Shown here: one piece after another, positions 20,805 to 61,505 of the stretch
How positions within the stretch are numbered: position 1 is the stretch's first letter
Layout: each line of letters opens with the position of its first letter
DNA from: Marisa cornuarietis
Taxonomy: Eukaryota > Mollusca > Gastropoda > Architaenioglossa > Ampullariidae
Length of the DNA: 64,000 nucleotides
NCBI GenBank assembly: GCA_004794655.1
Contig: SMMW01000087.1
Location: 2,117,501-2,181,500 of the forward strand
Direction: 5' to 3'
Made by a program: the position numbers and the translations under genes
The notes under the pieces: generated by a model
The model's database searches: none
Seen by the model: the letters and a program-made list of their open reading frames with translations, nothing else
What the model was told of the DNA's origin: nothing

Positions 20805-21927
20805 TTTATTAGTTACCAGCAAATTAAACATCAGATAAACAACTGCATTTCTTTCAGCTTGAAACAAGCCTATTTAGAACACCAAGGTTACTTCTTATCA
20901 CAAGTTCTCATCTGTTGACTGAAAGCCAGATGGTACACCTGTCTTATGAGTGATAACATTAAAAATAATATATAATGTGAAAATGGAATACAAAAGGCAC
21001 AGAATTAAGGGTTAGCAACAACAAATGTAGACTTCTCTGCAACTGGACAGCAAAAGCTTTGATATATAAAATGACAATTCTAAAAGAATTTTCAGCGTTA
21101 TACATTATTTCTTCATATATCTAGAAGGAAAAATAAAGCAGGCATGACTGTCATATTCTATGATGATCCAAAAAACTAATAAGCATATTTTCAAATAATC
21201 ATGGACTATGAAAAAATTAATCTTGTATGGCAGCACCCACCAAAAGCACAAGTGCTGATGGAATCATTTCAAACTTACATGAGGTTGATCTAAGTGGGCA
21301 AGGTACAGTGCACTAAAAATGAGCTGTGTAAGACTGGCAGCTCTAAGAGCTTTCTATACAAAATCCTGATGTCTCAGTTGTTGAAAAAAAAAATTATGTT
21401 CAATTTTTAACTATAAATTACGTCCATAATTACATATATATATATACATATATATACACACACACATTAACAGTAGTTTTGATCAAATAGTAAACACCTA
21501 TCACAATAACGCCTTGAGTGATTCTGCTGACAGGAAAATTCCATTGGAAAGTGTGCTTGAAGTCAAAAGTGGATGTCAGCTGAAGAAATACAGGATTATG
21601 ATGACTTCAGACAAAAATTTAAAAAAATTAATGCGCAGCAAACAGAAAAATTACAGGTGTTTCAGACTATAGAGACAGAAATAGAAAGGTAAAGCCGATG
21701 AATGATTGGTTTGAATAAAAAAGTCACACAAGTCAAACATCTTTTCAAACAGATGCCACAAGCAGATGAAGAACAGCATGCCCGAGTTGAGAGCTGAACC
21801 CAGGATGGCCAACCCTCAATGTATTGGTGACTGTTGCGCTACTGAACCGCCCTTTATAGCTGTGAGTGAAAACAAGTTTAGCTATGGTCGTCAACATGTC
21901 ATTCCTATAAAGAGGCACTAAACTGCT
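20805..21927 (-). other. Probable 3' UTR of SLC18B1-like gene
   Basis: The first minus-strand AATAAA after the stop codon is at 20810-20805 (plus-strand tttatt); further ones occur at 20614-20609 and 20044-20039. The stretch is AT-rich with no further exon signal. A SINE-like copy (about 21750-21856) lies only about 70 nt past the stop codon and would be transcribed in sense. The true cleavage site is unknown. Confidence 0.35.
21750..21856 (-). repeat. tRNA-derived SINE-like element, family A, 3'-truncated copy
   Basis: Read on the minus strand it has GGCGGTTCAGTAGCGCAACAG and CCTGGGTTCAGCTCTCAACT, then TTGTGGCATCTGTTTG, matching the 33.0 kb copy in order. It stops at about 21750, before the C-rich 3' part. 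It lies in the likely 3' UTR of the SLC18B1-like gene in the same orientation. Confidence 0.65.
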
Positions 21928-24900
21928 TCACTCATTGTCTTGCATGCTGCTGCCGCTATTAGGACCATGTGATCTTGACACCGACGTACAACCAGCTGCA
22001 TTTTCCAATGTTTGAGGTCTGACATGCTCCTGAATTGGTGCTGAATCCCCAGAAAGATTAGGGAGACAGGTTTTTTCAATGACGACATATGATGCAAAGA
22101 AAACACCCTGCAACACAGCGAAATTAACCTTGAATTTAAGGATATGTTACACGTTCATACACCTTAAGTGATATACTAGTTCCTGATCATCACACTGTCA
22201 CCTGCGAATATGCATACACAAATCTGAATACACTGGACTTAAAATACATAAACTATTGCTGGCAATGCACTATATTTTGTAATAATTAAATACAGTGGCT
22301 TATTTACACTGATTCTGTCAAACTAATTTTGTTTCATTTTAGATTTTTATTAATACATCTTAAAAAGGACAGAAAAACCTGTTTTAAACTGCAATGTTAA
22401 TCTGTGATAATCTGCTAATGTTAAATACCAGAAATACATGTTTAAAAATGATGTTCTCGTACCAAACTAGAAGTCGATACAATAAAAACCCTCACAAATG
22501 ATACCAATAAATGCATGTCTTTCAAAATAGTTCCCTTCTTAATTTACAAATTTAAGATACTATCAAACCCCAGTAAAGACTGCTCATCTACTGAACTCTG
22601 TTCCAAAACACCAAAAATTAATTATAAGTAGTGAACATTCCAAAACACAGGATTTTGAAACAAGCAATAATTTACAGCCATTACACTTACTGAGACTGCA
22701 AACAAGCCAGCAGTGGTGGTTGCTGTGAATGCAAATCCTTTGTGTTCTTCTATAATGCTCCCTACAGTGGGTCCAATAAATGTCCTGTTATCACAAAGTC
22801 TTTTTGTAATAGAATCAGAATGCTAATAAATAAAAAACCGATAAAGATTATAATGAAGCAAAGTAGTAAATACAATATGTTGCTTACTTACCCTACAGAA
22901 AAGGCTGAGTTGAATAGGCCAGACACAATACCAAAGGTGTCAAGATTCTCCTCAAAACCTACACGTCTGTCAAACAGTTAATATACTTCAGTTCTGTTTA
23001 AGCTGCGTCTTAAAATAATACCCTAACAATCTCTTCATTTTTTAATTTACATATTTCAAAGCATTACGGTAAGAGTCTCTTTGCAGTAAATAGCAAACAA
23101 AAATAAAGGTGGCAACCCAGCAAACAAACCATTTCCCTTTTAATGATTTATTTTAAGGCTGTCCTGTTTCAATTTGAAAAACTGTTTTCTGAACTAGCAC
23201 AACCAAACTATAAAAACTTTGAAACATTAAAAATTGATAAAAGGTCTGTTTTAAACACTTACACCTGGCATAAAAGAGGTTTGCATTAGTTTAATACTAA
23301 ATAGAATTTGCATTTTCCAGAATGTACTTACTGTGCACCAATAAACAAACATCGCAGTGTTGGAACCAAAGTACAACCAATACCCAGTCCCATCAGCACC
23401 AGGCTGACAATGACCAGCCACAGCTCACTGTGCAAAATTCATTCATCAGTTCATCAAAACAAACATTGCTTAGAATGCTGGATACATTAACAGATTTAAC
23501 ATATAGGTCACACTTACTTTGCTTGTGCAAACAGTATTCAAATCAGAAACAGCAGGTGCAAATCTTCCAATTATTTCAGATTTAATGTGGTCTAGCATAC
23601 TCTTGTGGTAATGGGTGAATGTATGTAAATGTTAATGTGTATTAATATGTACTAAAAACATTTTGGTGGCCACTGATTTGGGATTTTTTTTTTTTTAAAG
23701 GAAAAAGCCAATTCATGCTAGGACAAAAAATTGACTTACTTTCATGAGAGTAAATAATGAGAGAAAGTCAGGGTAGCAGTTAATATATCTAAAATTTATT
23801 TTTTTTAAATGTCTTTTGCACAAATGCCATTAGTGCTATAAACCAATACCAAACAAGCACTTGCCTAGGAAGGAATGGTAGAAAAGAAGATGGACCCAAC
23901 ATGAGGAAGCCTATGCAATTTACAATGCTGCCAATTATGACAAGTGGGTAGAACAAACCCTGCATTATAAAACAATTTTTGACATGCTCATACTGCAAAA
24001 TTCTCTCTCTGAACTGAATCAAACTTGCCAAAACATATACACTACATAAAATACATTCTGTGTGCACGTGTTTGTATTTATAAAATAAATATAGAGATAC
24101 ATAGTAGGTGTGTTCCTATGTAATGCGACTTCTAAAGTAACCATTAAGGCAGGCCCTATGTCCTTTAGAAAAACACAAGATACAATAATAATAAATGCTG
24201 GGGCACAAGTCAATAAAGGAACAGATGAAGTATAATTTATCACTAAGTAGTCAAGAAAATCCCTGAAGCCAAAAAAAAGTAGATAAGATGGCCAAACAAT
24301 AGGCTGCAGGTATGTTCCAAAATCTACTGTGATAATATGAAACCACAGATAATACCAACTGCTATAACTCCAATGATGTAGCAACTAATCTGGACAGTGA
24401 GAAGGCTAGAAAAACAATTGAGGCAAGTTCAGCAGGGAAGCATGGGTACAGATACAAAGGGAGAGGAGTCAAGTGCTGGGTACATTTCGGTTCCTGGATT
24501 TCACCATGTTATTGCACACTAAAGGAAATTAGATAGTGAATCAGTGGAGATAGGGTACAACTACGTATGTATGTATGTATGTATGTATGTATATTATGTT
24601 TATTTATATGAGAGAAAGGGTGTGGTGAGGAGAGAGATATATCTCTTCTTTTTTTTTTCTTTTTAACACACATACACACTTCAAACAAATTGCAAAGCAA
24701 AAACCTACCTTAGTATCACTGAGATAACCCCAGAATGGTGCTGTTATGGCATACAAAGCTGCCTCTATCACAAAAATCAGGCCAATATACACTGTGCGCA
24801 AGGTGAACTGCACAGTGAAGACCAAATGTTTCCAGATATATGCAAGATCATATCAAAAACAAAACTGTTAATATTTCTATGTGGTCAAAAAGTGTGGTTT

Positions 24901-27900
24901 TTTTTAAGTAGAGAAAGACTGTTGTGATGCATAAGTATAAAGAAATATGCAAAAAAAAAAAAAAACTCTCAAAATAGTAACATTTAGATAACTGGCATAT
25001 TGTCAAACGCATTAAGTTGGGTGAGCGAGTTACACTCAACTATTTAAAAACCTAGTACTAAACACAAAGATTACATAATGGTCCTTCACAAAGCTTTTTA
25101 ATACAAAATTATAGACTATTTTTGTCCTATGATCTGTGTATGTAGATCTCACGTAACAGTTTCAAAGCTGGAAAATGGCTTCCAGCTTCAAAGAATATAT
25201 TTTAATACCTGACTCAGGTGATCTGCAAGCGTGGGTTCCAAGAAGCCAAGGGAAAATGAACCACTTCCAATGATCAAGACAGAGACAACGACAAGAGGAT
25301 TGGTAAGGAGGTGTAGTACAGATCCTTTTCTAGGATGTGGTTCATCTAAAATGACAAGAATTATTATTATTATTATTATTATAAATAGGGTTAAGAACAC
25401 AACCGATATCTTTTAAAATTAAATCAAGTGGTTTGTCATTCAAAGTAGCTACCAAAAAATTCAACAATATGAATTTAAGTTCACTTTTCTTTGCCATTCT
25501 CAGTTGGCAAGTTGTCAGTTACAATCTTTCCCCACAGAAACTTGTGCCCACTGAATCATCTTTAAAACAGACCCGAGTTACACATGTGCTACTGCTGTAG
25601 ACAGCCTGTCTGCAAATTTTGTCCAGTTTTTCCAAGTCTAAATAAATCAAAACACTCCTGACACTCAGCTTTAGATTAGTTCTGCTATTAATTTGACCTT
25701 CCAGCCTCTTACACTTGTAGTCTGCATATCACTGTAGAACATGTAAGAAATCAACGTTCCCAACCATGGATATTAAATCAACACTTTTAATGCAGAAATC
25801 ACACAAATGCAAATCCACAGCATGTTTTGTGTGTCAGTCAAACAAAGAGGAGGGCAAAGTACCCGGCATATCTGGAAGTAGAATCATCGTGATTACTGAG
25901 GCACAGACCAGTACAGACCCCATCACCCAGAATGGCAAACCAAAGCCTCCCAACTGCAAAGACATTGGAGAATGATTAAAAGAATGATTACAAGAATGAC
26001 ACCAACATTCACTATTATATTTTGTTAACCTTTCCTATAAAGTTCGCACCTGCAAATGTGAACGCTTTTATAGCTACAGTTCAACTACGTCAAGACACCT
26101 GTATCCAATGAGTTAAGGTGCATATCTAATTGCAACAGCAACTTCTTCAAGTCTGATTTTGACTAAAACAGCAAATGCTGCAAAATAGAAAAATCTAAAA
26201 TAATTTCCTGAAAAGAATTAATAAAGATGTTTTGTATTGTATAGATATTATTAGATTATCACACCTAAGGATACTTACTTCATATAAGGCACCTCCAATT
26301 GGTGGTCCAACCATAAGTCCTAGACCAGTAAAAGTTTCCAGCGTACCCTGCCAAGAACACCTATACTTATCACCAGTAATATGAACAATTAGTAAATGAG
26401 AACCATGAACAAAGTTGCTGATGATGAACTAAAAAAAATAAAATAAGCTATTTAATTCAAATGTCATTTTTTGCAGTTTTTAACCTTTACTTTGTTTTTG
26501 TTGTAGTTTACATAAGATATTAGATACTTCTGTTTTTGTGTATATACATTTCAACTGCATTTCAAAAATAAATAAGAGATAAACATTCATACTTACAAAC
26601 ACTGTAGACACATGTCCAGGAAATTCATTTGCAATAATAGCAAAACTTGAGGTAACAAATGCAGAAGCTGCCAAAGCTTCCACTGTGCGCACCACAAAAC
26701 ACATGACAATGAAGATTGTTCCAGAAGGGCACAAGTGCAAAATGCTGCAGCAAGAATTAAACTTAATCCTGTCATATACATAGCTCCACTATTAATACCT
26801 CTCAAAAATAGAAGAAAACCTTAGTTAATGGTAGAACAGTCTTACTTTGATGATAAAATCAATGTGTCTTAAGAGATTAAGATTTCCATTGTATCACTGA
26901 ATTGGATTCCTGGTTACAAGTACATTCATCATCTTGCTTAGTGGTGATGGTCAATAACAGGCTCACACTAGTGATGATTGTCCAAGAACAAAACTTACAC
27001 CACCATAGAAAAACTGATGTGAAAACTTAAAGACACTGCTTACCCAAACAGAACTGCACATCCACCACAGACAAAGAGCCCTGAGATGAACAGGAACCGT
27101 GCTCCAATCTTTGTCAACTGTGTGATAATCATCAAAGCAGTATGACAAGTTAAAGCATTAAAACAGTGTTAAAGATCTCCATTCATTAGTTATTATAAGC
27201 CTTCTGCCACACAACTCAGGAACCCTAGCCACTAACATAAAATGTAAAATCATGATGACGATGATGACGATGATGACAATGACAACAATGATGATGAAGG
27301 TATTCAGCACTCACTCTTGCTACAGCAATTCATAACACACACGCACACACACACACACACACAAGAGAACTCATGCACATATGTGCCTACATACCCGCAC
27401 ACACAAAGAACAAAATTATGGCAGGAGAAAAAACAAATTTAAACAGCGAATATGAAAAGGCTGTTTGTTCCAGTAAGTCGACCATAGACTGAAAAGGAAC
27501 GTGGACTATATATATACAAAATCTGTCCCAAAGAATTTAAAGTGTGGGAAGGTTTTATATTCTGCCTGATTTTCTGCATTTGTAACAACCGCACAGTCGC
27601 CTAAGCAACAAAAGCAGATTTTCTAGATATTTTGAACAAATCGCTTAGGGCTATTCCTTTCTGTCGGACATCTCTCATAGGCCAGGTATGACCAAAAATA
27701 ACACATAACTAATCCATTTTGGAGAATGTGTTGCAGATACAATCATGTTTTACCCTCATCCCTACATGTTGTGGCCATGTTCCAAATTTATTAGATTTAT
27801 TCACTAATTCCCAACTCAAAGCTTAAGCCATAAGTCTAATGCACTTAAATCATTCTCTCTTTTCAACAATTTCTGCTCCTTTATTGTACTATTCTATGAA

Positions 27901-29082
27901 ATAATAAACTGCTGTTTTAAAATGAATTTCATCGAAAGAGATTATCCAGAACAAAATTGTCTTCCACACAAAAGCCAGTGGCAGCAGTTTACCCATGAAC
28001 ATCAATAGCTCCACTAACCCAAACTCCCCACATTCCAAAAGCAAGCAAATGACAGTAAAGCTTTCATCCAAAATAAAAATTAGAATTTTCTGCAAAAGCA
28101 TTTTTAAAAAATCTAAGACACACAAAAATAGTACTTACAAAGAGGCCATAAAGAGGAGCAGAAACAAAAATCCCAAGCTCAAACGAGCTAAAAATAAGCC
28201 CAATGACCGTTTGAGAAACACCTTTCTTGCCAGCCTGAAGATCAGCACAGAGAGCCAAACATACAATTAGCAGGTAAAATTGAGAGCAACTTTATAGGTT
28301 GATACCATTTTAGTGGTTCTTTGCAATGTTAATTAACATTAAGTAGTGTTTAAAAAATTTAATGCTTTTAATATACAAACTTTTTAAAGACACTGAAGAA
28401 ATGCATGTAAAGTGCATGACATCTGAGTGTTTTCAAAGATATTCACTTAATGCACTGCACTCAAATGGTGTGGAAGGTTATACATTTGTAAGTTAAACAT
28501 ATGAGGGCACTACACATCTATGGTTATACATTCTACTTGCTTAAACCATGTACACAGACTGACATGCTGTTTTTATTCCTATTGTTATTTCCTAACTTAT
28601 ATGCCATAAATTGACTGAAACAGAGTTCTAGTTTTCTTCCCCAAATAGAGTATTAAAGGCATTTGCATTTCCCTGTTATGCTTTTCAGGAAACAAATTTT
28701 ACAGCATTTACATTTTAATACCCACATGTTTACACTGTGCCAAAAAAAAGTAAAAAAAAAAACGGTCTTTATCTTAGAATGATATTTCTCTTACCTCAAT
28801 GGGAAAGAATGGAGCCAGTAGTGAAAAACAAGTACAGGCGGCAAAGTTTGAAAATGCCATCATACACAGTGTCCACTTCTTCCGTGAAGGTAGCTGCCTA
28901 AATGAAAAGGATGTTACAGAGTCTGCATGCTTACTAGTTTCCCCACCTGCTGCATCTTGGGGCTGGTCCTCATTAATTTCAATATTTACAGAGCTATAGT
29001 TCTCTGTTGATGTTAGTAATGGTGTGCGTTCGCCAGCATCCAAATGCTTTTCTCTCACTCTCTTTCTTCCCCCAGATTGCAT
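21928..29082 (-). CDS. SLC18B1: SLC18B1-like MFS transporter (vesicular polyamine transporter family), 13 coding exons
   Basis: Coding exons (minus strand, high to low): 29082-28795, 28234-28139, 27117-27044, 26744-26597, 26347-26279, 25953-25863, 25345-25209, 24807-24709, 23959-23865, 23427-23332, 22966-22892, 22784-22691, 22107-21928. The sum is 1542 nt, 513 residues plus TGA, and every junction keeps frame. The predicted 12-helix protein aligns along its whole length with vertebrate SLC18B1 as I remember it (about 456 residues). Landmarks are FSLLAPFFPIE at the end of exon 1, the helix 2-3 loop YGLFLTKIGARFLF (motif A-like) near 126-139, and the antiporter motif C-like GLGLMVGPPIGG at 210-221. 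In mammals the family moves polyamines into secretory vesicles; substrate here is inferred. The first 70 residues are polar and cytosolic, with ERTPLL at 18-23. Intron 9 has a GC donor. The gene lies head to head with ADHFE1. Confidence 0.93.
24095..24430. repeat. Dispersed repeat, copy 2 (SLC18B1-like intron 8)
   Basis: This partner of the 20.2 kb repeat lies between transporter exons 8 and 9. On the minus strand it reads LLTVQISCYIIGVIAVGIIC in one frame and, after a shift, FGFRDFLDYLVINYTSSVP with more hydrophobic sequence to about 24090. The reading is not an SLC18B1 segment. I do not recognise the source. Confidence 0.6.
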
Positions 29083-29208
29083 GACTTATTTTCTTGTTTG
29101 CCTTTATACCCTTTGTTTGTGACTTGTCCACTACCTTGCTGACTGTACTTTACTAGTCCAAGTGTGACACAAGTTTAGATTTTTGTAGCATTCATCTGTT
29201 TTCATGAC
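29083..29208 (-). other. 5' UTR exon part of SLC18B1-like gene, with a short upstream ORF
   Basis: On the minus strand an acceptor (ttgttctag) ends at 29209, giving 126 nt of leader before the ATG at 29082. The leader has an ATG at 29205-29203 opening a 24-codon ORF that ends in TAG at 29133-29131. It is in the same frame as the transporter but separated by three in-frame stops, so it cannot extend the protein. The acceptor pairs well with the donor at 29788. No transcript evidence is available. Confidence 0.5.
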
Positions 29209-29788
29209 CTAGAACAAAAAACAAAAAGAATTATATTATAAAAGCATCAATAAAAGCTTCTATTAATCAAAAGAATATATGTTCCTGTAGGTGCCTTAAT
29301 TAGTCATTTTAGTTTTAACATTTCATTTTACTTTTCCAAGATTTCTCTCTGATGAAATCTGAGTGCTGAATTGCATGTCCCAGATTTGACTTTAATAATT
29401 TACAGAAGTACAACTAGTGAACTATTTCTGACAGGTCCTCACTGACCATGGTCTTGTCGTTGTTGGAAGGACTACTTTAAAATGTAACAGAAAGTAAAAG
29501 AAACAACAAAAAAGGAGAAACAAATAGCCTGAGCTTTATTACCAAATTAACTCTTAGTACATCACAAGCAAAGCAATTAATGCCTTTGCTATCAAGTTTT
29601 AAAGCTCTAAAGCCAATGTAATAAAAGAAACTGAAGGTATGATGCAAAAATGAACTATGTGATAGTGTATATTGCATAAGTGTGTGTATATATATATATA
29701 TAATTCACAGTCTGACAGTCATACCACAGACATGGCTAGGAACGACATTTTTTATCGTTATTATTATTACAAAACTTTAGGTACTCAC

Positions 29789-29985
29789 CTAAAAAGCATC
29801 AAGCCATAGAGTGTGTGCACCGGCCCATATAAATGGCAAATACACGAGTGTATGCTCCTCATTGCTACTCTGTAAAAGACTGAGCACAACTGGAATGGCT
29901 TTAACAGCTCTCGTGTGTTCATTGAATTCTGTTCACTGAGCAGTCGAACCTCTAAGGGCTAGGTGTTGTTTCCCTTTCAACCCAG
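29789..29985 (-). other. Putative non-coding first exon of SLC18B1-like gene
   Basis: A strong minus-strand donor (AG then gtgagtac) lies at 29788, with the exon above it. Splicing to the acceptor at 29209 would remove 580 nt of 5' UTR intron. The upper limit is a guess set by the CCAAT box at about 29990. No long open frame continues into the transporter, so I treat it as untranslated. Confidence 0.4.
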
Positions 29986-30317: not shown

Positions 30318-33300
30318 ATGTCTTCGCTTTTACGAGCATTTGGTGTTAACCACAGAATTTCAACAAAATGGTAAGAGCTATAACAGTGTGTATTCCGCTG
30401 AGTTTTAATGCATTATCATTGTCTGTGGCAGACGATCAGTCTAGTTTCGTTTTTAGCAGCTCTCGATAGAAGACAGCAAGACTTCCGCCGTCGGTGGCGT
30501 CAGTGATTTCTTGCGTTGCTTGCTTAAGAAACTGCGCGTGTGTCTGTATTTAACTACATTACCTACTGAGCGTCTTGATGCGTGCCTTTTATTTGTATTA
30601 AACCAAAATATGTGTTGGAAAAAAAAACACCCGCCGGCCCTTCTCGATCCTTGTTGTACCCCTTCCAGATGTTTATGACAGCGAAGAAATCAGCGTTAGG
30701 CAGAACTGCCCCATGCCTTTTTATCGGGTAAAGGTATGGTTTTTCTCTATGGGTTCGGTTCAATTCCCGATACTGTATAATTTGTCGAAATCGAGTAGGG
30801 GCTGGGACTAAACTTTAATTAAGGTCAAGGTCTTTTTGCATACCAGTATACTTCGCATTCAGAAACGAATGTATGCAAATGGCAGATGATAGGTTTAGAC
30901 ACATAGAAGCATTAGTCACTGATCTGTACATTATGCTAAGATGCTGAAAATAATAGCCCTTATTTTTCAGTTAACAGTTTCAGTTGATTTCCAGTTCACT
31001 TGCATACAAAAAATTTGCCTCAAGAACAAAAATCTTAAAGACAATGCATCATACCTCAGTAAAACAATACGTTGCAGTTGCAATTATTTTTACATCTTTC
31101 AAAAACATCTTTTCCAAATTATTCCAAAAGGTCTTAACCATTACAACAACATAGGCCTAATGGTCACATGATTTTCGGCTACTGTGCAGCAAAACAACGG
31201 AACTCTCTCCCTTTCCATATCCGCCACCTTCCTACAACTGAATCCTTCAAATCTGCACTGAAAACGCACCTTCTCCTTGACCATTACTCCTAACACAGTC
31301 CACACAATGCTCGTCCTTCGATCTTACCTTCCCCGGCCCTTCCGCTCTTGATACTTTTCTACCCATCTTTCTCTGCAGAAACTTATATTCTCTGTTCCTG
31401 TTACTTGGTGCCTTTTGTGTTTTCTATTTGTCGTCAGTACTGTACGTCGTTTATTCTTCCGTCCCTCGTGTTCTATCCATTTAGTCCATGTCTCTTCCCC
31501 GTTTTAAGCGCTAAGAGCATGTGCTCTCTATGAATGTGAATATGCACTATAAAATTAAATCTTCATTTTTATCATTATTTATAGTTCAGTTCTGAAACAA
31601 TTAACTTTAGGTTTCACGTCTTTTTTAATTTCTTAAAACTGTTCACACAGCTGATTCTAATCTTGTTCGGACTAAATTTCAGGAAACTACTTGTACCATC
31701 CTCATATCAGTTGATTCAGAATGGTAAGTGGTTTGACTGAAGATTTAAAAACAAAGATCATATGTGGCTGATTATGGAATGTAAAGAACTATAAAATCTG
31801 TTTAGAGGGTTCACAAGAAAGTTGCCTGATTGACATAATTTAAGAAATTAAAAGTCTGAGGCAAAATATTTGTTCTTGGATATGGAAGAATTATTGAGAA
31901 AAATAACTGTGCCTCTGTATTTTTTAATTTGATTTTTTTTTTTTTTTTTGCCAATTAGGATTAGTATCAACTTACAATCAGAATGCCCAGACAGATTATG
32001 CATACGAGGTAGGTGAAGTTGCTGATTTGCATTGTTGTTCTTGAAAGAGATGCAGACAGATATTAAACATTATATGTTTGCAAATTCTTCAATATTCCAT
32101 ATCACTAATCGTCAACTGTTGAATATACACTTCTACATTTGTTGACACTGATTTTACATGGATGCCCAGAATATTTTTTCTCTTTTAAGCAGTTAAATAT
32201 AATTAATCTAAAATATAATGTATTCAATGAAAAAATAAAGAACTGTAATTCTTTTTAAGATGGCTTGTTCCAATATTCGATATGGAAAAGGTGTGACACG
32301 GGAAGTTGGTCTGGTAAGTCTTTGTCGTTTTTTTGTATGTCTCACTTGCTACTGCAGTCAATGTTGCTGTTGTGCTGATGGTATATGATAATGAGTGTGG
32401 TAGTAATGGCTTAAAATTATAAATAAATAAGTATCTGGTACCAGGAAATTTAGTAGTTATCCAAGGTAACCTATTAGCATTTCATGGGACAATGCAGTAA
32501 CAGACTTTTTTGTAATTCAAATATCTGTTTTAAAGTGCAGTCACTGAATAGTCATTTTTGTGGTTTGAAGAACATGACAAAATATCTCTTCAAGGTGTCC
32601 AAGATATCTATATTTATTAACTGCTTTTTAAATGGTATGAGCAGCATGTAACAAATTCTGTATGGAAAGTGTAAAGAAGCAGAATAAAAATATGTTTTGG
32701 TTAATATTTCTTCATGGTTTTGACAGGACTGCCTAAACTTAAAAGCCAAAAATGTGTGTGTGATGACGGACAGTAAGCTAGCAAACATGGATCCTGTGCG
32801 GGTGGCTCTCGAGTCCCTAGAACAACATAAAGTTCCATACCAACTGTATGACAAAGTGCGTGTGGAACCGTCAGACCAAAGGTACTGAATCTTTCTAAGT
32901 TGACAGGGAAGTTAAAATGTAACACTATTATTGTTATCATTGTCCATGTTCGTTGTGCCATGTTGTTGGGAGTTATTAGAGAAGTAGATGGGACTAAGAG
33001 GCAAAAGAAGGAAATAGAGTTTGACTCATGCTGGTGTGAGCGGTCCGGTGGCACAACGGCTAGCACCTGTCACCAGTACAGTGAGTGCTGGCTGTCCTGG
33101 GTTCAGCTCTCATCTCAGGTATACTGTTCTTTCTCTCTTTGTGGCATCTCTTTACAGGCTGGCTGCCTTTCCTTAGTTGCTGGTTCAGGGTAAAACACCA
33201 AGTAGCCCCCCCCCCTCACCCCTGTCATGCTGGTGATTGTAGTGGAGTTTGCAAAAGAGAGAGCAAGAGTGTGTGTGTCTCTCTCTCTCTCTCTGCATGC

Positions 33301-36300
33301 AAATGTGTGTGTGTGTGTGTATCTTTGTGTGTGTCTGTGCATGTGTGTATCGGGATATTTGTGTATGTTCATGTATATGTTTCTGCATGTATATATATAT
33401 ATGTGTATATCTGCATGCATACATATGCATATATGTGTGTATGTTAGTGTGTGCAGTGGGTAAAGTCTGGAAGTGTCCAAAGTACAACCTCAAGAGAATC
33501 TAGTGACTTTCCAGCCTGTGTGATTCTGTTAATAGTACCCTTACTTCCTTTAATGTTTGTTTGAATCACAACCCAGAATGAAAGTGTACTACCAGGTGGA
33601 AAACAACAATTGATTGGGCATTGGTAACATTAATTAGTCCAGCAGGAGATGGATAAAGGGATAAAGATCTAAGAATTGCCACATAAATACGTGTACAATA
33701 TGTGCCATGTTGTTGGGAGATACATGTTCAATATATTCACACTGGATTTTTCACACATTTCAGTCATTTATCCAGCTTATTCATTTCCTTTTTTATTTTC
33801 TTATTTTTTAATTTTTATAAGTAATCTACACTGCTAGTTGGATTATGCACCTTGAGTGTGTCTTCATTAGTGGCGAAGGCACTCGCCTATAAATGTACAT
33901 TGATTATTATTATTACTGTCATGATTATTTTTCACAAAATTCCTGATACAATGGTAACATTTTAAAAAGTAATTCCATACACTTATTAAGTTGTTCACGA
34001 TCTGTTTCAGCTTCAAAAATGCAATTCAGTTTGCATTAGATGGAAACTTTGATGTCTTCTTGGCAGTAGGTGGAGGATCTGTTATGGATACATGTAAAGC
34101 TGCTAATCTTTACTCCAGCAATCCAAGTGCAGAGTTTTTGGACTATGTCAATGCTCCCATTGGCAGGGGAAGGCCTGTCACACACAGTGTGAAACCTCTC
34201 ATTGCTGGTACAGCCGACTTAACCTTTTATTTTCAGCACCTTGTTCTGCCCGTTTTCCTCATCATGCATTTTATTTTTCCCTTTACATGACTGTGTTTAT
34301 TCATTTTGAATCAAATGGAGCAAAACCTGATAATAAAACACTCTTCAGAAATACAAGTCATGGAAGAAAATAAAAATTACGTGTAACAAATTACGATGTT
34401 GGGTGCAGCGTGCAGTCATGATTGTCTGCATATCTGTCATCAAGATTATATAAAAATATTAAGGGACAAAGCTTTATTCAGAAGATATTTACGATTTCCT
34501 AAGCAGAAATTTCATATTGAGCCAAATAGGCAATTTCTTTCAGTATCAACCACAGCAGGGACGGGAAGTGAGACAACAGGGACTGCTGTCTTTGATTTCT
34601 TAGCCCTCAGGTCCAAAACAGGTGAATTGACCCAGAAAAGGTTTTTTGATAAGTTTTGTAAATGGTTTTTTTAACTTGGCTTTATCTACACATGTAGACA
34701 TATATATTTAAATATCATCAAAATATTTGAAACAGGGTCTCTTCTTTTTTGCTCGAATCATAGTTCTGTTTTTATGGTACATATTATACAAAGTATTAAT
34801 ATCATGTATTTGAATAAACATAGTTTGGCTTTAAAAGGTTTTTGAAGTAGATATGGTGAAAGTTCCAGCTGCATGACAGGGTTTGTCAAGAATCTGGAAT
34901 ATGTAAGTGCATGCAAGTCATAGTAAATCTATAATGCATGTGCACATGCATGCATAAAAGAGAGAAAGAGAGAGCTTTGCATGTGCATCTTTTTTCTTGT
35001 GTCTATGCATACATTGCTGTAAATACTTCAGGTATATCCAGCAGAGCACTACGACCCACTCTAGGAATCCTTGACCCTCTCCATTTGAGAACAGTTCCGG
35101 AGAGAGTGACTGCCTATACTGGCATTGACGTTTTATGGTAAGTTTAAAACATGACTAAACCCAGTCCAACAGTCCATAGTTAAACATAAAATTTTTTTTA
35201 ATGATGCTATAAGCATTAAAAGCACACAAAAAGAATATAATTAGATAACACCATACTTGGTAGGGACAAAATAATAGCACATCAATAGCCTCCCTTAGAC
35301 TTATCACAAACAGGGAGAGACGACATTATGTCAGACCTACTATCTTCAAGTCAGTGTGGACCATACATTATTAATTTTTTTTTATATTTAGAAATATTGC
35401 AGATATTTCTCAAAACACATTCCTCCAAAGTAAGTGATTCTTTTGTTGTTGTTTCTGTTTGAAGACAACAAATGTTTTATTCTCATCTTTAATGCTTAAT
35501 TGTTCAATGATTTTTTTTTTTTTTTTTTACTTTCATATAAGTATTTATCAATAAATCTTTCCAGGCTTATTTTAGTTATAAATTTGGTTGCCTTTTCACA
35601 ACTAGAAGACTTTGCAGCTTATGCTGTTTTATGTATAAAGATGCTGTCCTGTATTTTATTTGTTGGATATATGCATTTATATTGTTTGATGTAGGTCATG
35701 ATACTTTGTTTTGGACAGTTAATTATTTTCTACCAGTTTTACTCCATCAAATTCTTTTAGATCTAAGTTCTAATTTTGTTCTAATTGTAGACAATATAAC
35801 TTATAACTTTCACATTCTGTTGTATGTATAGCATTTTTAGATTACTTTACTACAGCATATAAAGATGGACTAACAAATATGATTGTCAGATTGTGACCTC
35901 TTTTGTATAACAGATCTACAGACACATCACTCCAAATCTGATCCACTTCCCTGACAGAAGTTAATGCTGTCCTGTAATATTCTTTAAAAAAAATCAGTAA
36001 ATATTTTCATTATAGTTGTATATACTTTGACATAGACAACACGTAAAATAATTAAAGAGAATAAGCATCAGGGAAAAAGAACAGAAAAAAGTGTTTGAAT
36101 TCCTTACTATTTTGTCCTAAAATTCTAGCATATCCTTCTGCAGGCCTGTTTGGGTCTTTTTCATCAAGTGGTATCTGCTTTACCTGTGTTACCAACTGCT
36201 GACATATGCATCCTCATTTGTTTTAATGGAAAGGAAAAAAAAAACTGAAAGCATTTATAGTTCCTGTAAAGCAATTGAAAGTAGCTGTGTATAGTAGTAT

Positions 36301-39300
36301 TTTAAATAGTGTCTTTAGATCTTAAACTAACAGTTTTTATTTTTAAACATCCAAACTTTTGGAAGTCTTCTTCTAATGTGTGACATGCTTTATTAGTGAG
36401 CTAATAAAGCGGTTTTCAAACTGTGGTATGCGTACTACTACTGGTATGGGAAGGTATGACGGGTGGTACGTGAGCACCATGCGCCAAAATAAAAGAATGT
36501 GTATATATATTTTACAGGGGCTGCGTGTAGGGTTGGGAGGTGGTAGTCGTTCAATTCCAATTTTCGAGTGCTTCTCATCTGGAAAAGTTTGAAAACCACT
36601 GAGCTAATAGGATCCCAGAGTTTTTGTTTTTCTTCATGGAGCATATGAAGCCCATGAAGATATTAACTTGATTTTTTTTAAAATCAAAGCGCAGGACCAT
36701 TTTTATAGAAAGAGTCTGGACATTTTAAAAATAAGGAGAAAAAAATTTCAAAAACAGCAGTAAGGAAAATGTTTTGATTGAATCATCTTTTAGTAGTGGA
36801 TTGTAATTTTCACATTTCTTGTGTTTTATTACAGATCTACATTACTATTCTTTTTTTAAAACTGTAACATTACTATGTTGGCTTCATTGATTTCCATTCT
36901 TTTCAGTCATGCAATAGAGTCATTCACTGCTATGCCTTATTATGAAAGACAGCCCCGCCCTGATAACCCGATTGCACGGCCTGCCTACCAAGGTAGTAAT
37001 CCGATCAGTGATGTATGGTCAAAGCATGCCTTGACCATAACCTCCAAGTTTTTGAAACGGTATGTTCAGAAAACTGTTAACATTTTGGTTCTTCTTTAAT
37101 AAGGAAGAGGATTGGGGTGAAATTTACATACTTAATTACAGTCAGTATTCATGTAAATGTGATTTTATTTTATCCTTAGTATTTTCGTTTCTACTCTCTC
37201 TGGTGCTAAATCATCATCAGTATAGTGTGCTGACTTTTGTAGCAAGGCCTGTGTTTTTGTGTGTGTGTGTGTGTGTGGTTTTTTTTTTTGTGTGAGGCAT
37301 TAAGTGTCAGTTGAGGACTTGGACTTTTAGAGCTGCTGATTTAGATTCTCTTGCACAATGGAGTGAAAACTAGTTTTTCAAAATCTAGTGTTCATTAATT
37401 TACCATGACTAAACCATATCTACATTAGGAAATAATTTAATGACTCAAGAATCCATTTCTCACATACTGAAACTTGCGATAGAAATTGCAGGAGAGTTTC
37501 ATTAAATAATAATTTTTTCTGAAAAATATTAATAAATCTTGTACTTGATACCCGATCAGAGCTGAGCTTGATGTCTCGACCTAACATTGTTAATGGAACA
37601 TGCTCCATTTGTTTTTTAATAGGAACTCAAGAAGTTTATTAATTTCCATTTTAAAGAAATTTTAAAAGTTCTGAAGCATCAAAAGCGGTTTAAAGACTAC
37701 TAAACTAAAATTCATCACAGAGCAATTATGAAAGGCACATAAAGTTCACTACCAACATTTCATGACTGTTTTGATGCATGTTGGTATCAGTAACATTTCT
37801 GTTTTTATTTTTGCTTCCCTGTTATTCATTGTATGTGCAGTGCTGTGTACAATGCAGATGACTTTGAAGCACGTTCGGAAATGTTGCTGGCCAGTTGCTT
37901 TGCTGGAATTGGTTTTGGCAATGCTGGGGTGCATTTGTGGTAAGTTGTTGACCTTCCACGCTTGACATCTGCATGCAGGATGTTTGTCATATCTTCCTCA
38001 TGCTGTTGCAGAGCAGTGTATAACCCTGATGATGAAGAGGCAAGATCTCAAATGTTGCTTGCTAGCTGCTTTGCAGGTATAGGATTTGGCAATGCTGGTT
38101 GCCATTTGTGGTAAGTCCAGCTTTGTTTAAACCATCTCATCTTCTTGGTTTTGTTTTTGATGGGTGTTAAAAAGGAAATAAAGGTGACAATGAAAACACC
38201 ACTGTTGCGTACTTTTGTAGTCTAGATTGTCTCGTTGTTGTCTGATTCTAACTGCTTGATTGAGCTAACCCTCTAAATGCTGGTGTTTGTGAAAAAAGTC
38301 TAACAACAAGTGCTCGAAGAGCACTCTGTATTTGACATGGGACAAGATACAACATATTATCCATACTGAGTAAGTAGTGAGCGTGAGATAAAACATGAAG
38401 ATTAAAGTTTGAACTTTTGCTATTACGCAGTCATGGCATGTCTTACCCAATCTCAGGCTTGGTGAAGACGTTCACATCAAAAGACTATGACTTGGATCAT
38501 CCAATGGTTGTAAGTTATTTTCAGCAGCTGGTGTTTACCTATACAAAATCTTGTAAAATGTTAGATTGGTCACTATTTCAGCTCTGCATATGATAAAAAG
38601 GCTCTACATTGTCACAAAAAGCTAAGCTTGAATCCCAGATTGTGTACAATGTGTAGTTCTCCAACTTTTGATTAGTTTTGTCAATGGATATTATTCCAGA
38701 CCAGGCATACAGCTTGTTTTAAGGTGTAGGAAAAAAGAATGTGCTGTTTCTAGATCTGTCTTGTTTATGTTAAGGTCAGTTTCCATTCACATTTGTCTCC
38801 ACTGATGATGTTACAAAAAAACGGTTTTTGACTGAAAGGAAAGAGAGTGTTAATTTTTGGCATATTTAGCAATTATTCTTTTTTAGAGGCCTGCTATTTG
38901 ATTGTTGAGGTAATAAAGGGGCAGGTCGTGTTCTACCATTTGTTAGGTAGTTGAAGGGTGAGGTGTTACAGACCGCTCTTTTCTCAAGGCCAGCTTTTTT
39001 TTCCAACATCACCATGGTTTACCCTTCCCCAACCCTCATTTGAGTCAGCAGCTGGATCAACTGAGAGAAGTTCACTGGGCCACACAAGTATCAAACTGGC
39101 AAACTTCTGAGGTTTGCCGCCAGTCCTCAAACTATTTCGCAGTCTGCTTCTACTTGATTGTTACCTTCACTACAAAGTGTCCAGAAATAGCTTTAGTGGT
39201 TGGATGCAGAGGCTTGGAAGGTTTCCTAGGATCTTTTCTGCCAAAGAAGTTGGCTTTAAAAAAATGTACTTTAAGCTACAGTTCTAGACATTAAGGACTA

Positions 39301-40495
39301 AAATTTGTAACACAAAGAGGCATCATGCAGGCCTTGATCAAAGTCTCTACTCTCATCCATCCCTCCTTCAAAATACTGGGAAGGTTATTGATAGGTGCAT
39401 CTGTCCACATGTTTATAACTTTCTATTGTTATCACAGTCATAATCATTATCATAAGCAGCATTAGAAGCATTGTAACAAGAACCAGAGATTGTAATCAAA
39501 TTAGCTATTACCATTTTCCTTTGACAGCCACATGGACTTTCTGTTGTCATCACTGCCCCCGCAGTGTTCACTTTCACTGCCCCAGCATGTCCCGAGCGCC
39601 ATCTAGAGGCAGCTGCATGCCTTGGTATGTGATCACAATGTAGTTTATATATGCCTATCAAATACTATGCATATTGGTAAAATGAATTATGAAGTGGCGT
39701 AGGAAAATGCTCAGCTTTTATTTTGGGGTTGGGGGGGATGCAAACTCCATGCTGACAGTGAACAACATTCACATTCTTGCCTCCTCGGTATCTTTTTTCA
39801 GGGGCAGCCGACCCCCACCCCCCTTTTTTCCCCCTGGTTCCAATGCCACTATTATGCTTTTAGGTTTGAGAACTTATAGACATTTTGTCTGTCAAGTTAT
39901 CTATTGTCTAGTAAGAATAGGTGTAGCATAGTATTTTTAATGTTTTTAAACAATGCCAGTCACTCAGAATTACAAGAACACAAATCTAATATTTATAAGA
40001 AAACTCTACTAGTATTCACTTATTGCTAGGTATTAAGCATTTTTAAAAATAGGTGATGCATTAAACCAAACGTTTGTCAACAGGAGCTGATGTAAGAAAT
40101 GTCAAAAGAGAAGATGCTGGACAATTTCTGGCTGATGTTCTCCGCAAGATCATGCTTGATATTGAGGTTCCGAATGGTCTGAAAGAACTGGGCTACACCT
40201 CAACCGATATTCCTGAACTAGTAAAAGGCACTTTGCCTCAGGTATGCATCATGTATGAATGCATATATATTTCTTCAGAAAAGATTTTATTTGTTATTCT
40301 TGTGAAGGCAAAGAAATTTTAAACTGTTCTCCCAATATTTTGCTGATCTTTCTGATGCTACTGGACAAAAGTCTGATTATGCTGGGTCATAATATTTGCT
40401 TTTTGTTTCAGCATCGTGTAACAAAATTGTCACCTAGGCCTGCCAGCGAAGAAGATTTTGCTGCTATGTTTGAGAGTTCACTGACAGTATATTAA
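30318..40495 (+). CDS. ADHFE1: Hydroxyacid-oxoacid transhydrogenase, mitochondrial (iron-containing alcohol dehydrogenase family)
   Basis: Exons: 30318-30370, 31683-31723, 31959-32008, 32260-32313, 32727-32881, 34011-34207, 34544-34621, 35032-35137, 36907-37059, then 37841-37939 or 38012-38110, 38431-38509, 39528-39624, 40084-40241, 40412-40495. With one exon 10 this is 1404 nt, 467 residues, the length I recall for human ADHFE1. The enzyme oxidises 4-hydroxybutyrate while reducing 2-oxoglutarate to D-2-hydroxyglutarate in mitochondria. Residues 1-30 are basic (R6, R13, K17, K19) with no acidic residue, fitting a targeting presequence. Visible motifs are the nucleotide loop [10 protein letters not shown] at 138-147, [10 protein letters not shown] at 185-194, and iron ligands Asp242, His246 (GIDVLCHAIES), His330 (CHGMSYP) and His357 (PHGLS). 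All introns are GT-AG and all phases match. Exon 10 is duplicated in tandem (separate entries). Confidence 0.96.
31185..31580 (+). mobile_element. 3' end of a CR1/L2-type LINE in ADHFE1 intron 1
   Basis: [20 protein letters not shown] then [12 protein letters not shown] and a stop is the C-terminal block shared with the 43.3 kb element (ALPSSLSTISSPTTFRKRLKTHL). About 200 nt on comes GTGCTCTCTATGAATG, CACTATAAAATTAAAT and an AT-rich tail. The copy is severely 5'-truncated and lies in sense between ADHFE1 exons 1 and 2. Confidence 0.6.
33035..33260 (+). repeat. tRNA-derived SINE-like element, family A, copy in ADHFE1 intron 5
   Basis: The 5' part has a box A-like TGGCACAACGGCTAG and a box B-like GGTTCAGCTCT, about the right distance apart for a tRNA-derived RNA polymerase III promoter. 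A shared body follows (TTTGTGGCATCTCTTTACAG) and then a C-rich run. Two minus-strand copies (16.1-16.3 and 21.75-21.86 kb) match it through head and body. It lies in sense inside an intron and is followed by a (GT)n/(TC)n tail. Family identity is not established. Confidence 0.7.
33275..33450 (+). repeat. Compound (GT)/(TC)/(TA) simple-sequence region in ADHFE1 intron 5
   Basis: Alternating GTGTGT, TCTCTC and ATATAT runs follow the SINE-like element. The long reading frames on both strands here come from low complexity. Confidence 0.85.
33845..33925 (+). mobile_element. LINE 3' tail fragment
   Basis: CACCTTGAGTGTG, ACTCGCCTATAAATGTACAT and GATTATTATTATTACTG form a LINE-type 3' terminus with an (ATT)n tail. 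It is in ADHFE1 intron 5, 80 nt before exon 6. No coding remnant is seen. Confidence 0.45.
37841..37939 (+). CDS. ADHFE1: ADHFE1 exon 10a (first of two alternative tandem exons)
   Basis: Acceptor gtatgtgcag precedes and donor gtaagt follows. The exon opens with one base that completes Arg296 and closes with TG of Cys329, so phases fit exons 9 and 11. It encodes residues 297-328, beginning [14 protein letters not shown] and ending GNAGVHL. Compared with 10b it has Ala301, Phe304, Glu309 and Val326. Val326 is also what I remember in the human protein. Confidence 0.9.
38012..38110 (+). CDS. ADHFE1: ADHFE1 exon 10b (second of two alternative tandem exons)
   Basis: Acceptor tgctgttgcag precedes and donor gtaagt follows. 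Length and phase are identical to exon 10a, 72 nt downstream of it. It encodes [14 protein letters not shown] to GNAGCHL, with Pro301, Glu304, Gln309 and Cys326. Pro301 matches the human NPDD as I recall it, so each copy keeps one apparently ancestral residue. About 26 of 99 bases differ from 10a, mostly at third positions, which argues that both copies are old and selected as protein. Because it starts with A, joining it after 10a makes TG+A, a stop. Confidence 0.9.
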
Positions 40496-43208: not shown

Positions 43209-43365
43209 GGGATGGACGGTAGTGTAGTAATTATTACACTCGCTTGTGAGCGGCGCAGGGTTCGGGTTCAGATCTCGTCTCGGGACACTCTCTGTACAGT
43301 GTAAGTGAGACCCGTCCGCAGGACTGGGCGTAGGGGATTTTCTCCGGGTACTCCAGTTTCCGTTG
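43209..43365 (+). repeat. tRNA-derived SINE-like head, family B, fused to a LINE fragment
   Basis: The segment GGTAGTGTAGTAATTATTAC, ACTCGCTTGTGAGCGGCGC and GGTTCGGGTTCAGATCTCGT resembles a tRNA-type head, followed by TCTCCGGGTACTCCAGTTTC. It runs directly into the reverse-transcriptase coding sequence. Another head of this family lies at 4.88 kb. The first roughly 20 residues of the downstream open frame come from this segment, not from the retrotransposon. Confidence 0.55.
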
Positions 43366-44756
43366 TGAAGCCCTTGTTGAAAAAGGCAAACCTGGATCCC
43401 TCTGACTGTAAAAACTATCGTCCAGTGTCAAATTTATCATATATTTCCAAGCTACTTGAGAGGGTGGTCGCAGAACAGCTTATGACCCATTTTATAACTT
43501 ATGGCTGCCTAGATAAATTTCAGTCAGCGTATCGTCCTGGCTTCAGCACAGAAACTGCTCTTCTTCGTGTGACCAATGACATTCTTTGTAGTGTCAACTC
43601 TGGCAACTTAGTGCTGTTGGTATTACTTGACCTGAGTAGTGCGTTTGACACTATCAACCACCGCCTGCTGCTCCAGAGACTGTCGTCAGAAGCTGGTATC
43701 CAGGGCGCTGCGCTGCAGTGGATTGACTCCTATCTTGCCGATAGATCTCAGAGAGTGATTGTCGGCTCTGCAAGCTCTGAGGCAGTTCCTCTGGTGTGTG
43801 GCGTACCACAGGGATCCGTTCTGGATCCATTATTATTTTCGGTATATACTTCACAGCTTGGACGGGTAATTGAACGCTTTCAGATGGGACGACAGTTCTT
43901 TGCGGACGATACACAGATTCTGCACAGTTTCCCCCCCCCCCCCGACCCAGCAGTGGCTAGGAATGCGCTTCAGCGACTTGAATCTTGTTGTGTTGCTGTG
44001 AAGGCCTGGATGACCAGGAATCGTCTTAAACTCAATGACGACAAGACAGAAGCGTTACTGTGCGGCCCCAGGGCCAGAAGGGAGCAGATTGACATTAGTG
44101 CCGTGCAGGTCGGTGACTCCTCCATAGCCTTTGCTGACTGTGTACGGTACCCAGGGCTGTTTATTGATGCAGAACTCTCCATGTGCAACCATTTTAGTTC
44201 TGTTGTGGCAAAATCCTACTACTTTTTGAGGACTTTAGGTAGACTACGGCCCATGCTGACTCAAGCTGCTGCCAACTCACTTGCTGTGACTACCATCATA
44301 TCAAGATTAGACTACTGTAATAGTGCATTGTGGGGTACACCTGCTGCGCAGGTGGATCGACTCCAAAGAGTTCAAAACACAGCCGCAAGGATTGTCACCC
44401 GTGCAAAGTGGTCCACTGAGCACATCACCCCTATCCTACAGAGCCTTCACTGGCTCCCAGTGAAAAAGCGCATTGACCACAAAGTGCTTTCGATTGCACA
44501 GTCCTGCATGTACAAAACTGCTCCTGACTATTTACAAGAGGTAGTTCCTCCCTACCAGCCGTCACGTGGTCTGCGCTCTGGCTCCCAGTCCCGCTTCTGT
44601 CTCCCTGCAGTGGAAGACACAAACAAGAAGCGCACTGGAGCCAGGGCCTTCAAAAACGCGGCACCTAAACTGTGGAATGCCCTGCCGTCGTCACTGTCCA
44701 CCATCTCCTCACCAACCACGTTTCGAAAAAGACTGAAGACCCATCTGTTTATTTAA
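43360..44756 (+). pseudogene. 5'-truncated non-LTR retrotransposon ORF2: reverse transcriptase and C-terminus (CR1/L2-like)
   Basis: The frame is open for about 465 codons from KPLLKKANLDP to KTHLFI. Reverse transcriptase motifs are in order: NYRPVSNLSYISKLLERVV, LLDLSSAFDTINH, GVPQGSVLDPLLF and FFADDT (about 200 residues from the frame's start at 43305), then the RLDYCNSALWG, RVQNTAARIV and LHWLPVKKRI blocks typical of the CR1/L2 group. The endonuclease and first part of ORF2 are missing. The usual Gly in GSVLGPLLF is Asp. A run of 14 C inside the frame (about 43930-43943) encodes four prolines and is prone to slippage. Recently active, now dead on arrival. Confidence 0.85.
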
Positions 44757-60419: not shown

Positions 60420-61505
60420 GTGGGCGATAGTGAGCAGGTCCTGTAGACGTTCGTAAGCCAGTTCTTTCTCTGGCCAAGGTGCCTTGAAGGAAAATCTTCG
60501 ACAAGGTGTCGTGCCGGGTCACATGGCCAAGGAAGACCAGCTTAGTGTCCTACGAGTGTGGCAATCTTGTTTCGCACAAAGTCGTTGATTTTATGTTCTT
60601 TGTATCAGATCCGGAGCAGCCTCCTCAGGCACTTGTTCTCGAATGCCTGGATTCTCCATTCCGTTTCAGCGAACATGTCGCATCCGTAGAGCAGGATCTG
60701 TACTACCAGGGATTTGTACAGTTTGTACTTGGTAGTGAACCTTATCTTATGGCTGTCAGATCCTATCTAGCCTAGCCATTGCTGCTGTTGTTGTTGCGAT
60801 CCTGATGCGGATATCTCGCGTGGCGCTGCCGTCTTTGGAGAGGGTGGCTCTTAAGTATTTGAAGCTGCTTACCTCTTCGAGCTGTACCCCGTTCATATCG
60901 ATCTCTGCTTTGCCATTGCCATTGATCATAACTTTGCTCTTTTCAGTGCTGGTCTCCATTCCATATGCATTTGAGCTGTCTGTCAGTCTGTTGGTGAGGT
61001 CTTGCAGTTCTTTGTTATTACCTGCTAACAGATCTATGTCATCTGCAAAGCGTAGGCTGCAGATCGGGCTTATACCAATTGAACTGGAAGTATGATGGTC
61101 GTGAAAAGCTTCGAGCATGATGTTCTTCAAGACGATATTAAACAGCACCGGTGATAGGCGACATCCTTGACGTACCCCTAATATGGTGCGAAAGTAATCT
61201 CGTATTTGGTTGTTCAGTGTTAGTACTGTACTCGATGATCTATTATACAGTACTTCAACGATTTGGACGAGGCTTTCTTTGATGCTGAATTTTCGCATCA
61301 CACATACCATAGCCCCTCGTGCCAGGCCCTGTCGAATTCCCTTCTAGAGTCAATTAAGTAGTGGTAAAGGTCCCGCTGATGCTGAAGATGCTTTTCTATA
61401 AGGAGACGACAGTTGAAGATCTGTTCAACTGTGCTTCTACGTGGTCTGAATCCAACCTGTTCCTCTGCTAGCAGCTCTTCTGCGGTGGTTCTTGAAAGGC
61501 CACTA
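60420..61505 (-). pseudogene. Broken non-LTR retrotransposon ORF2 (reverse transcriptase)
   Basis: Minus-strand blocks: EELLAEEQVGFRPRRSTVEQ (61.45 kb), IDSRREFDRAWHEGLW, then a frameshift at about 61300, MRKFSIKESLVQIVEVLYN, LGVRQGCRLSPVLFNIVLKN, SLRFADDIDLLAG with the catalytic Asp pair, and SSFKYLRATLSKDGSATRDI. Below 60.76 kb the C-terminal blocks continue through several stops (VPEEAAPDL, KELAYERLQDLLTIAHNRQE). It is truncated at the 5' side. The same family is seen at 42.5-42.96 kb. Confidence 0.85.

Follow-up and report, generated by a model that had tools for sequence, protein, structure and literature searches.

A tandemly duplicated, apparently mutually exclusive exon 10 in the ADHFE1 gene of the snail Marisa cornuarietis

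Why should a gene for a metabolic enzyme carry two complete versions of one internal exon side by side? The question is raised by ADHFE1, which encodes the mitochondrial hydroxyacid-oxoacid transhydrogenase, in a 64,000-nucleotide stretch of the Marisa cornuarietis genome (assembly GCA_004794655.1, contig SMMW01000087.1, positions 2,117,501 to 2,181,500). This stretch is hereafter called the window, and coordinates are counted from its first base. A first-pass annotation of the window had proposed that two adjacent copies of exon 10, here called 10a and 10b, are used alternatively. We consider it very likely that they are a functional pair of mutually exclusive exons. Such pairs are informative where they change the catalytic core of an enzyme of metabolism.

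The exon 10 pair and its splicing

The coding span of ADHFE1 lies on the forward strand at 30318..40495 and comprises exons 1-9, either 10a or 10b, and exons 11-14, with consensus splice sites. Among the 120 protein matches listed, those with names were mostly called hydroxyacid-oxoacid transhydrogenase. The closest protein among them was isoform X2 of Pomacea canaliculata (P0001, an NCBI record), with 95% identity over the full length. Pfam domains of the iron-containing alcohol dehydrogenases (Fe-ADH) were found on P0001, and the fold of this family and its metal ligands (Asp, His, His, His) are present.

Exon 10a (37841..37939) and exon 10b (38012..38110) are separated by an intron of 72 nucleotides (nt; 37940..38011). 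They lie between exon 9 (36907..37059) and exon 11 (38431..38509), which are common to both forms, and all of these features are on the forward strand. Each copy is 99 nt long and encodes residues 297-328 in an open frame, with an AG acceptor, a GTAAGT donor and identical start and end phases. Exon 9 ends in CG, and its last codon is completed by the first base of exon 10, which is T in 10a (CGT) and A in 10b (CGA), so that Arg296 is encoded either way. At the other end, TG from exon 10 meets the first base of exon 11, T, to give Cys329, followed by His330. Both split codons read alike with 10a or 10b, and the gene model yields a protein of 467 amino acids with either copy. Coordinates, acceptors, donors, phases and product length all agreed with the first-pass annotation. 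No further exon 10 copy was found in the window by tblastn with both peptides (the next match, E = 0.017, was short and gapped).

The two copies differ at 26 of their 99 bases. Among these differences, 25 fall inside the 32 whole codons, 18 of them at third positions, and only four residues are changed from 10a to 10b (A301P, F304E, E309Q and V326C). The numbers of base and residue changes, and the predominance of silent ones, were the same in our recount as first reported. We simulated 26 neutral substitutions 20,000 times from each copy. None of the 40,000 simulations gave four or fewer residue changes (minimum nine, median 16), and a stop codon was present in 43% and 50% of them for the two starting copies. 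By the NG86 method, the nonsynonymous divergence (dN) between 10a and 10b was 0.12, and the synonymous divergence (dS) was returned as undefined because silent sites were saturated. Together, the simulations and the saturated dS indicate that selection has long maintained both copies. Exon 10 was therefore duplicated in tandem, and long-term purifying selection has acted on 10a and on 10b, as had been claimed at first sight of the sequence. Beyond the exon itself, the repeat takes in just a few bases of the splice sites; it measures 110 nt, with 76% identity. A recent duplication or a haplotig error was ruled out by this confinement and by the saturated silent sites, and the earlier dismissal of a recent assembly duplication holds on the same grounds.

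Each mRNA would include either 10a or 10b, and the two resulting enzymes, both full-length, would be distinguished by a single segment of 32 residues. If 10a is joined to 10b, an in-frame stop (TG|A) arises, because 10b starts with the A that completes the CGA codon after exon 9. Messages with both copies would be expected to undergo nonsense-mediated decay. If both copies are skipped, the frame is kept and 33 residues are lost. The 72-nt intron is the shortest of the 14 in the gene (the other 13 measure 170-1769 nt), and it probably imposes a steric block, with scant space between the 10a donor and the 10b branch point. Known mechanisms of exclusion include both reading frame with nonsense-mediated decay and proximity of the 5′ splice site to the branch point (PMC7969005). 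In the human OGDH exons 4a/4b, branch points are found 25-41 nt from the donor, and a steric limit of about 50 nt has been proposed (PMC7969005). A simple consensus scan of the snail intron gave branch-point-like A residues, each with a T two bases earlier, at +12, +26, +50 and +61; AG dinucleotides begin at +4, +38 and +71. We infer that exclusion is probably enforced twice, by the short intron and by the TGA. Base pairing in the RNA that might direct the choice of exon was also sought, and only six short inverted repeats were found (arms of 11-15 nt), none of them compelling. As a separate observation, the AG at +38 (37977-38011 of the window) is a possible in-frame acceptor, which would add 33 nt to 10b (11 residues, with no stop by eye).

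Exon 10 versions in other molluscs

The segment of P. canaliculata isoform X2 is identical to the 10b peptide (32 of 32 residues), and that of Babylonia X1 matches 10a at 31 of 32. In 42 proteins taken as molluscan, some of them placed by similarity and with P0021, P0121 and P0218 excluded, residue 326 was Cys in 23, Val in 12 and Thr in seven. We refer to these as C, V and T types; 10a is of the V type and 10b of the C type. Isoform-labelled proteins of a single type, V or C/T, were found in several molluscs.

We compared the 32-residue segment with 389 columns of the remaining protein. Among the 356 pairs that were more than 85% identical elsewhere (of 9727 pairs), the segment was slightly more conserved on average (+0.026, standard deviation 0.075). 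The extreme outlier was Mytilus galloprovincialis X1 against M. trossulus X2, with 387/389 identities outside the segment and only 23/32 inside. Nine of their 11 differences in the compared columns fell within the segment (hypergeometric P = 1.3e-9). Beyond those columns, the two records show two more substitutions and, at the N terminus, a length difference of two residues, and there are zero differences between the end of the segment and the C terminus. Comparable contrasts were observed in pectinids (Mizuhopecten X2 against Ylistrum X1, 355/389 outside and 22/32 inside) and in the pair lgn7/lgn8 (353/389 and 22/32). For pairs at least 80% identical elsewhere, the mean segment difference was -0.083 in 21 V versus C/T pairs and +0.013 in 35 same-type pairs (Mann-Whitney P = 0.0018, the pairs not being independent). 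In the four pairs for which differing sites were listed (Mytilus, Mizuhopecten/Ylistrum, lgn7/lgn8 and Biomphalaria/Physella), sites 301, 304, 309 and 326 were all among them. The first three were given no evidential weight, since they belong to the four sites that vary most in general: they rank 1, 3 and 4 among the 32 by entropy in 114 proteins that do not belong to the mollusc set.

The gene model of Plakobranchus ocellatus (P0021) contains a truncated exon 10 copy followed in tandem by a full one. As its sequence stands, it reads as independent evidence for a duplicated exon 10 in another gastropod. The first copy ends after AGIG. A predictor that avoided a stop would cut in this way, hinting at a joint-inclusion stop in Plakobranchus. 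Another record, P0121 (ENA-derived, 264 amino acids, from a 1448-nt contig), has one good exon 10 fragment at amino acids 2-25 and, further on in the same frame, two degenerate exon-10-like stretches at 68-98 and 148-167. This suggests a genomic array of at least three exon 10 copies, the later ones decayed.

By these comparisons, mussels, scallops and further gastropods would have the pair as well. For its occurrence in relatives, a point raised by the first-pass annotation, the case at the protein level is strong: the segment contrast in mytilids and pectinids and the tandem in Plakobranchus speak for it, whereas no other single species had both full versions among the protein records. The proposed mutual exclusivity gained support, being implied by the TGA, the 72-nt intron and the one-version records in other molluscs.

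Position 326 in the predicted protein

Structural models were built on P0001, which is of the 10b type. The model from a 92-sequence alignment had a mean predicted local distance difference test score (pLDDT) of 91.8; an earlier 30-sequence model (mean 68.1) was not used. In the model, the exon 10 segment would take in the last part of helix 277-299, then helix 304-324 and the loop that leads to helix 328-338. The helix after this loop carries a metal-ligand histidine (His330, aligned with His263 of Escherichia coli FucO). Residues D242, H246, H330 and H357 align with D196, H200, H263 and H277 of FucO, and we take all four to be metal ligands. FucO crystal structures, including that of the L259V mutant (7qlg), closely match the P0001 model, and residue 326 aligns to FucO Leu259 with no local gaps. 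V326C thus appears to be the most telling of the four differences, being aligned with a substrate-pocket site.

In FucO, L259V makes the substrate region roomier, and the laboratory-evolved N151G/L259V enzyme gained 9000-fold in kcat/KM on phenylacetaldehyde (PMC10324492). The snail enzyme and the FucO mutant have the iron-ADH fold in common and are altered at the equivalent aligned position (PDB 7qlg; PMC10324492). They differ in that FucO carries a laboratory Leu-to-Val point mutation, whereas the snail has a natural Val versus Cys/Thr difference, apparently selected by splicing. The alternative segment of ADHFE1 extends into the iron-dependent active site, and the only one of its changes to fall on a conserved site corresponds in the alignment to a residue that laboratory evolution picked for a shift in specificity.

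Among 205 proteins outside the mollusc set, residue 326 was Val in 170, Cys in 35 and never Thr. In a mostly animal subset of these (ids up to 120 or from 222), it was Val in 108 of 114, and the six exceptions were contig-derived and might themselves be molluscan. We also observed that residues 326 and 329 were paired in the 205 proteins as V+C in 165, C+P in 18, C+C in 17 and V+P in five. This pattern, uncorrected for relatedness, hints that 326 and the residue before the ligand histidine are coupled pocket positions. The two isoforms would differ in substrate choice or kinetics. For a catalytic difference between the 10a and 10b enzymes, we consider the chances evenly balanced.

Alternative explanations and comparable systems

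Several observations weigh against a functional pair of this kind, or against its wider occurrence. The TGA hinges on one synonymous base of a CGN Arg codon, with a chance that we estimate at about 1/4; since the first base of 10b is synonymous, the stop is suggestive and not proof. The AG at +38 comes after the branch-point-like A that scored best (+26) and could spoil it, and the A at +50 sits just at the threshold of about 50 nt. The Mytilus contrast sets one species against another, with one version from each, and the protein database held one representative per 90% cluster, in which the P. canaliculata X1 sequence was not visible. Six of the 21 cross-type pairs had no deficit in the segment, all of them gastropods by name or similarity. 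The gastropod V and C versions appear to be alike, and the support from gastropods is weaker than that from bivalves. Cys326 also occurs outside molluscs, in 35 of 205 proteins including those of Hydra and the annelid Dimorphilus (both outside the subset of 114), and V326C may therefore be nearly neutral. In M. cornuarietis itself, 10a, like the snail's exon use as a whole, is known from genomic sequence alone. This leaves room for the view that a single copy is used and that its neighbour is either a relic of recent date or an artefact of assembly. We regard that view as scarcely credible given the saturated silent sites, the lack of stops, the intact splice sites and the exon-only similarity, and given that P. 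canaliculata has the 10b peptide in an isoform recorded at NCBI and that Babylonia X1 comes within one residue of 10a. The other molluscs enter our comparison through protein records only, so that their V and C/T types might belong to two paralogous genes instead of alternative exons. This is highly improbable in our view. The Mytilus records are labelled as isoforms X1 and X2 and are identical in everything C-terminal to the segment; paralogous genes are unlikely there because the remainder of the records is identical at 387 of 389 columns.

A further alternative touches the functional part only and overlaps with the explanation that we prefer. The pair may be real and mutually exclusive while the isoforms are functionally equivalent, each copy being kept by its use in some tissue or stage. 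We give this a somewhat less than even chance. Just four of 32 residues differ, three of them at highly variable sites, and the 35 occurrences of Cys326 elsewhere fit it well; yet Val326 prevails in the mostly animal subset while the V versus C/T contrast recurs in mussels, scallops and pulmonates, and the site aligns with the FucO residue altered in an evolved specificity shift. The origin of the pair was approached with a FastTree tree of 50 segments of 32 residues, without a topology test and with little power. In this tree, mytilid and pectinid V types grouped together, beside Haliotis and several non-mollusc V types, and gastropod V and C/T types were intermixed. The grouping suggests that the bivalve pair is older than the split between Mytilida and Pectinida. 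However, 32 residues are too few for a firm reading. It could equally well be that molluscs duplicated exon 10 on several independent occasions, and that the snail and bivalve pairs are convergent. The mixing of gastropod types beside the clustering of mytilid and pectinid V types would fit this, as would the array of at least three copies hinted at by P0121. Judged by eye, the first Plakobranchus copy is similar to the T type found in P0029 and in Elysia; the second is of the V type, an order that seems opposite to the V-then-C of the window. Repeated independent origin is also known for the mutually exclusive exons of mrp-1, cited in a study of coq-2 (PMC7434440). On the other hand, the repeated V versus C/T contrast would then require convergence, and gene conversion among adjoining exons could mask a single origin. 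A pair that arose once in molluscs and then underwent gene conversion is possible, and an old molluscan pair is our best reading of these sequences, its age and single origin both being inferred.

Mutually exclusive tandem exons are a known kind of arrangement. For an exon 10 pair in ADHFE1/T3dh, we found no report in the open-licence PMC literature by titles and abstract openings, supplementary tables not included, in line with the first-pass annotation, which knew of none. The nearest counterpart is coq-2, a polyprenyltransferase whose exons 6a/6e are mutually exclusive in helminths, annelids and molluscs, the last represented by Crassostrea virginica and Biomphalaria glabrata (PMC7434440). 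There, residues near the substrates are switched from Phe/Ala to Leu/Ser, and tests in C. elegans showed that the exons control rhodoquinone synthesis (PMC7434440). Both cases concern a metabolic enzyme with equal-length exons, mutually exclusive in coq-2 and very probably so in ADHFE1, that would switch conserved near-substrate residues, and both include molluscs. They differ in that ADHFE1 belongs to another enzyme family and its switch is a putative one, whereas the role of the coq-2 exons was tested in C. elegans. By analogy, ADHFE1 may be a second exon switch of this type. The vertebrate OGDH exons 4a/4b are also a mutually exclusive pair in a 2-oxoglutarate enzyme, with a size-restricted intron and branch points near the donor, and the likeness was extended to the summed length of the two exons, which is not a multiple of three (PMC7969005). 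However, the OGDH exons govern calcium sensitivity and not a catalytic pocket, and their branch points were mapped, whereas those of ADHFE1 are guessed.

Human ADHFE1 couples 4-hydroxybutyrate oxidation to the formation of D-2-hydroxyglutarate, and HPHD-1 of C. elegans does the same with 3-hydroxypropionate in the propionate shunt (PMC10096224). These are orthologous to the snail enzyme and alike in making D-2-hydroxyglutarate; unlike in the snail, no exon 10 alternative is mentioned for them in the available part of that paper (PMC10096224). ADHFE1 ties the breakdown of 4-hydroxybutyrate or propionate to 2-oxoglutarate. As the enzyme makes D-2-hydroxyglutarate, this product could come under the control of splice choice in animals that experience hypoxia. 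It is conceivable, although we think it rather unlikely, that splicing in molluscs acts as a switch of ADHFE1 substrate specificity, either in the donor preference of the V and C/T forms (4-hydroxybutyrate against propionate-derived 3-hydroxypropionate, for instance) or in D-2-hydroxyglutarate output. Such a switch would be set by oxygen or vitamin B12, as a companion of coq-2 in facultative anaerobes. The link to hypoxia and B12 is speculation.

Apart from ADHFE1, the window contains two long open frames of reverse-transcriptase type, one on the forward strand at 43305-44756 with a Pfam RVT_1 match and one on the reverse strand at 60756-61343, judged by eye only. On the reverse strand at about 21900-29900, a gene of several exons was recognized by eye as a transporter of the major-facilitator type; it is arranged head to head with ADHFE1 and presumably resembles SLC18B1.
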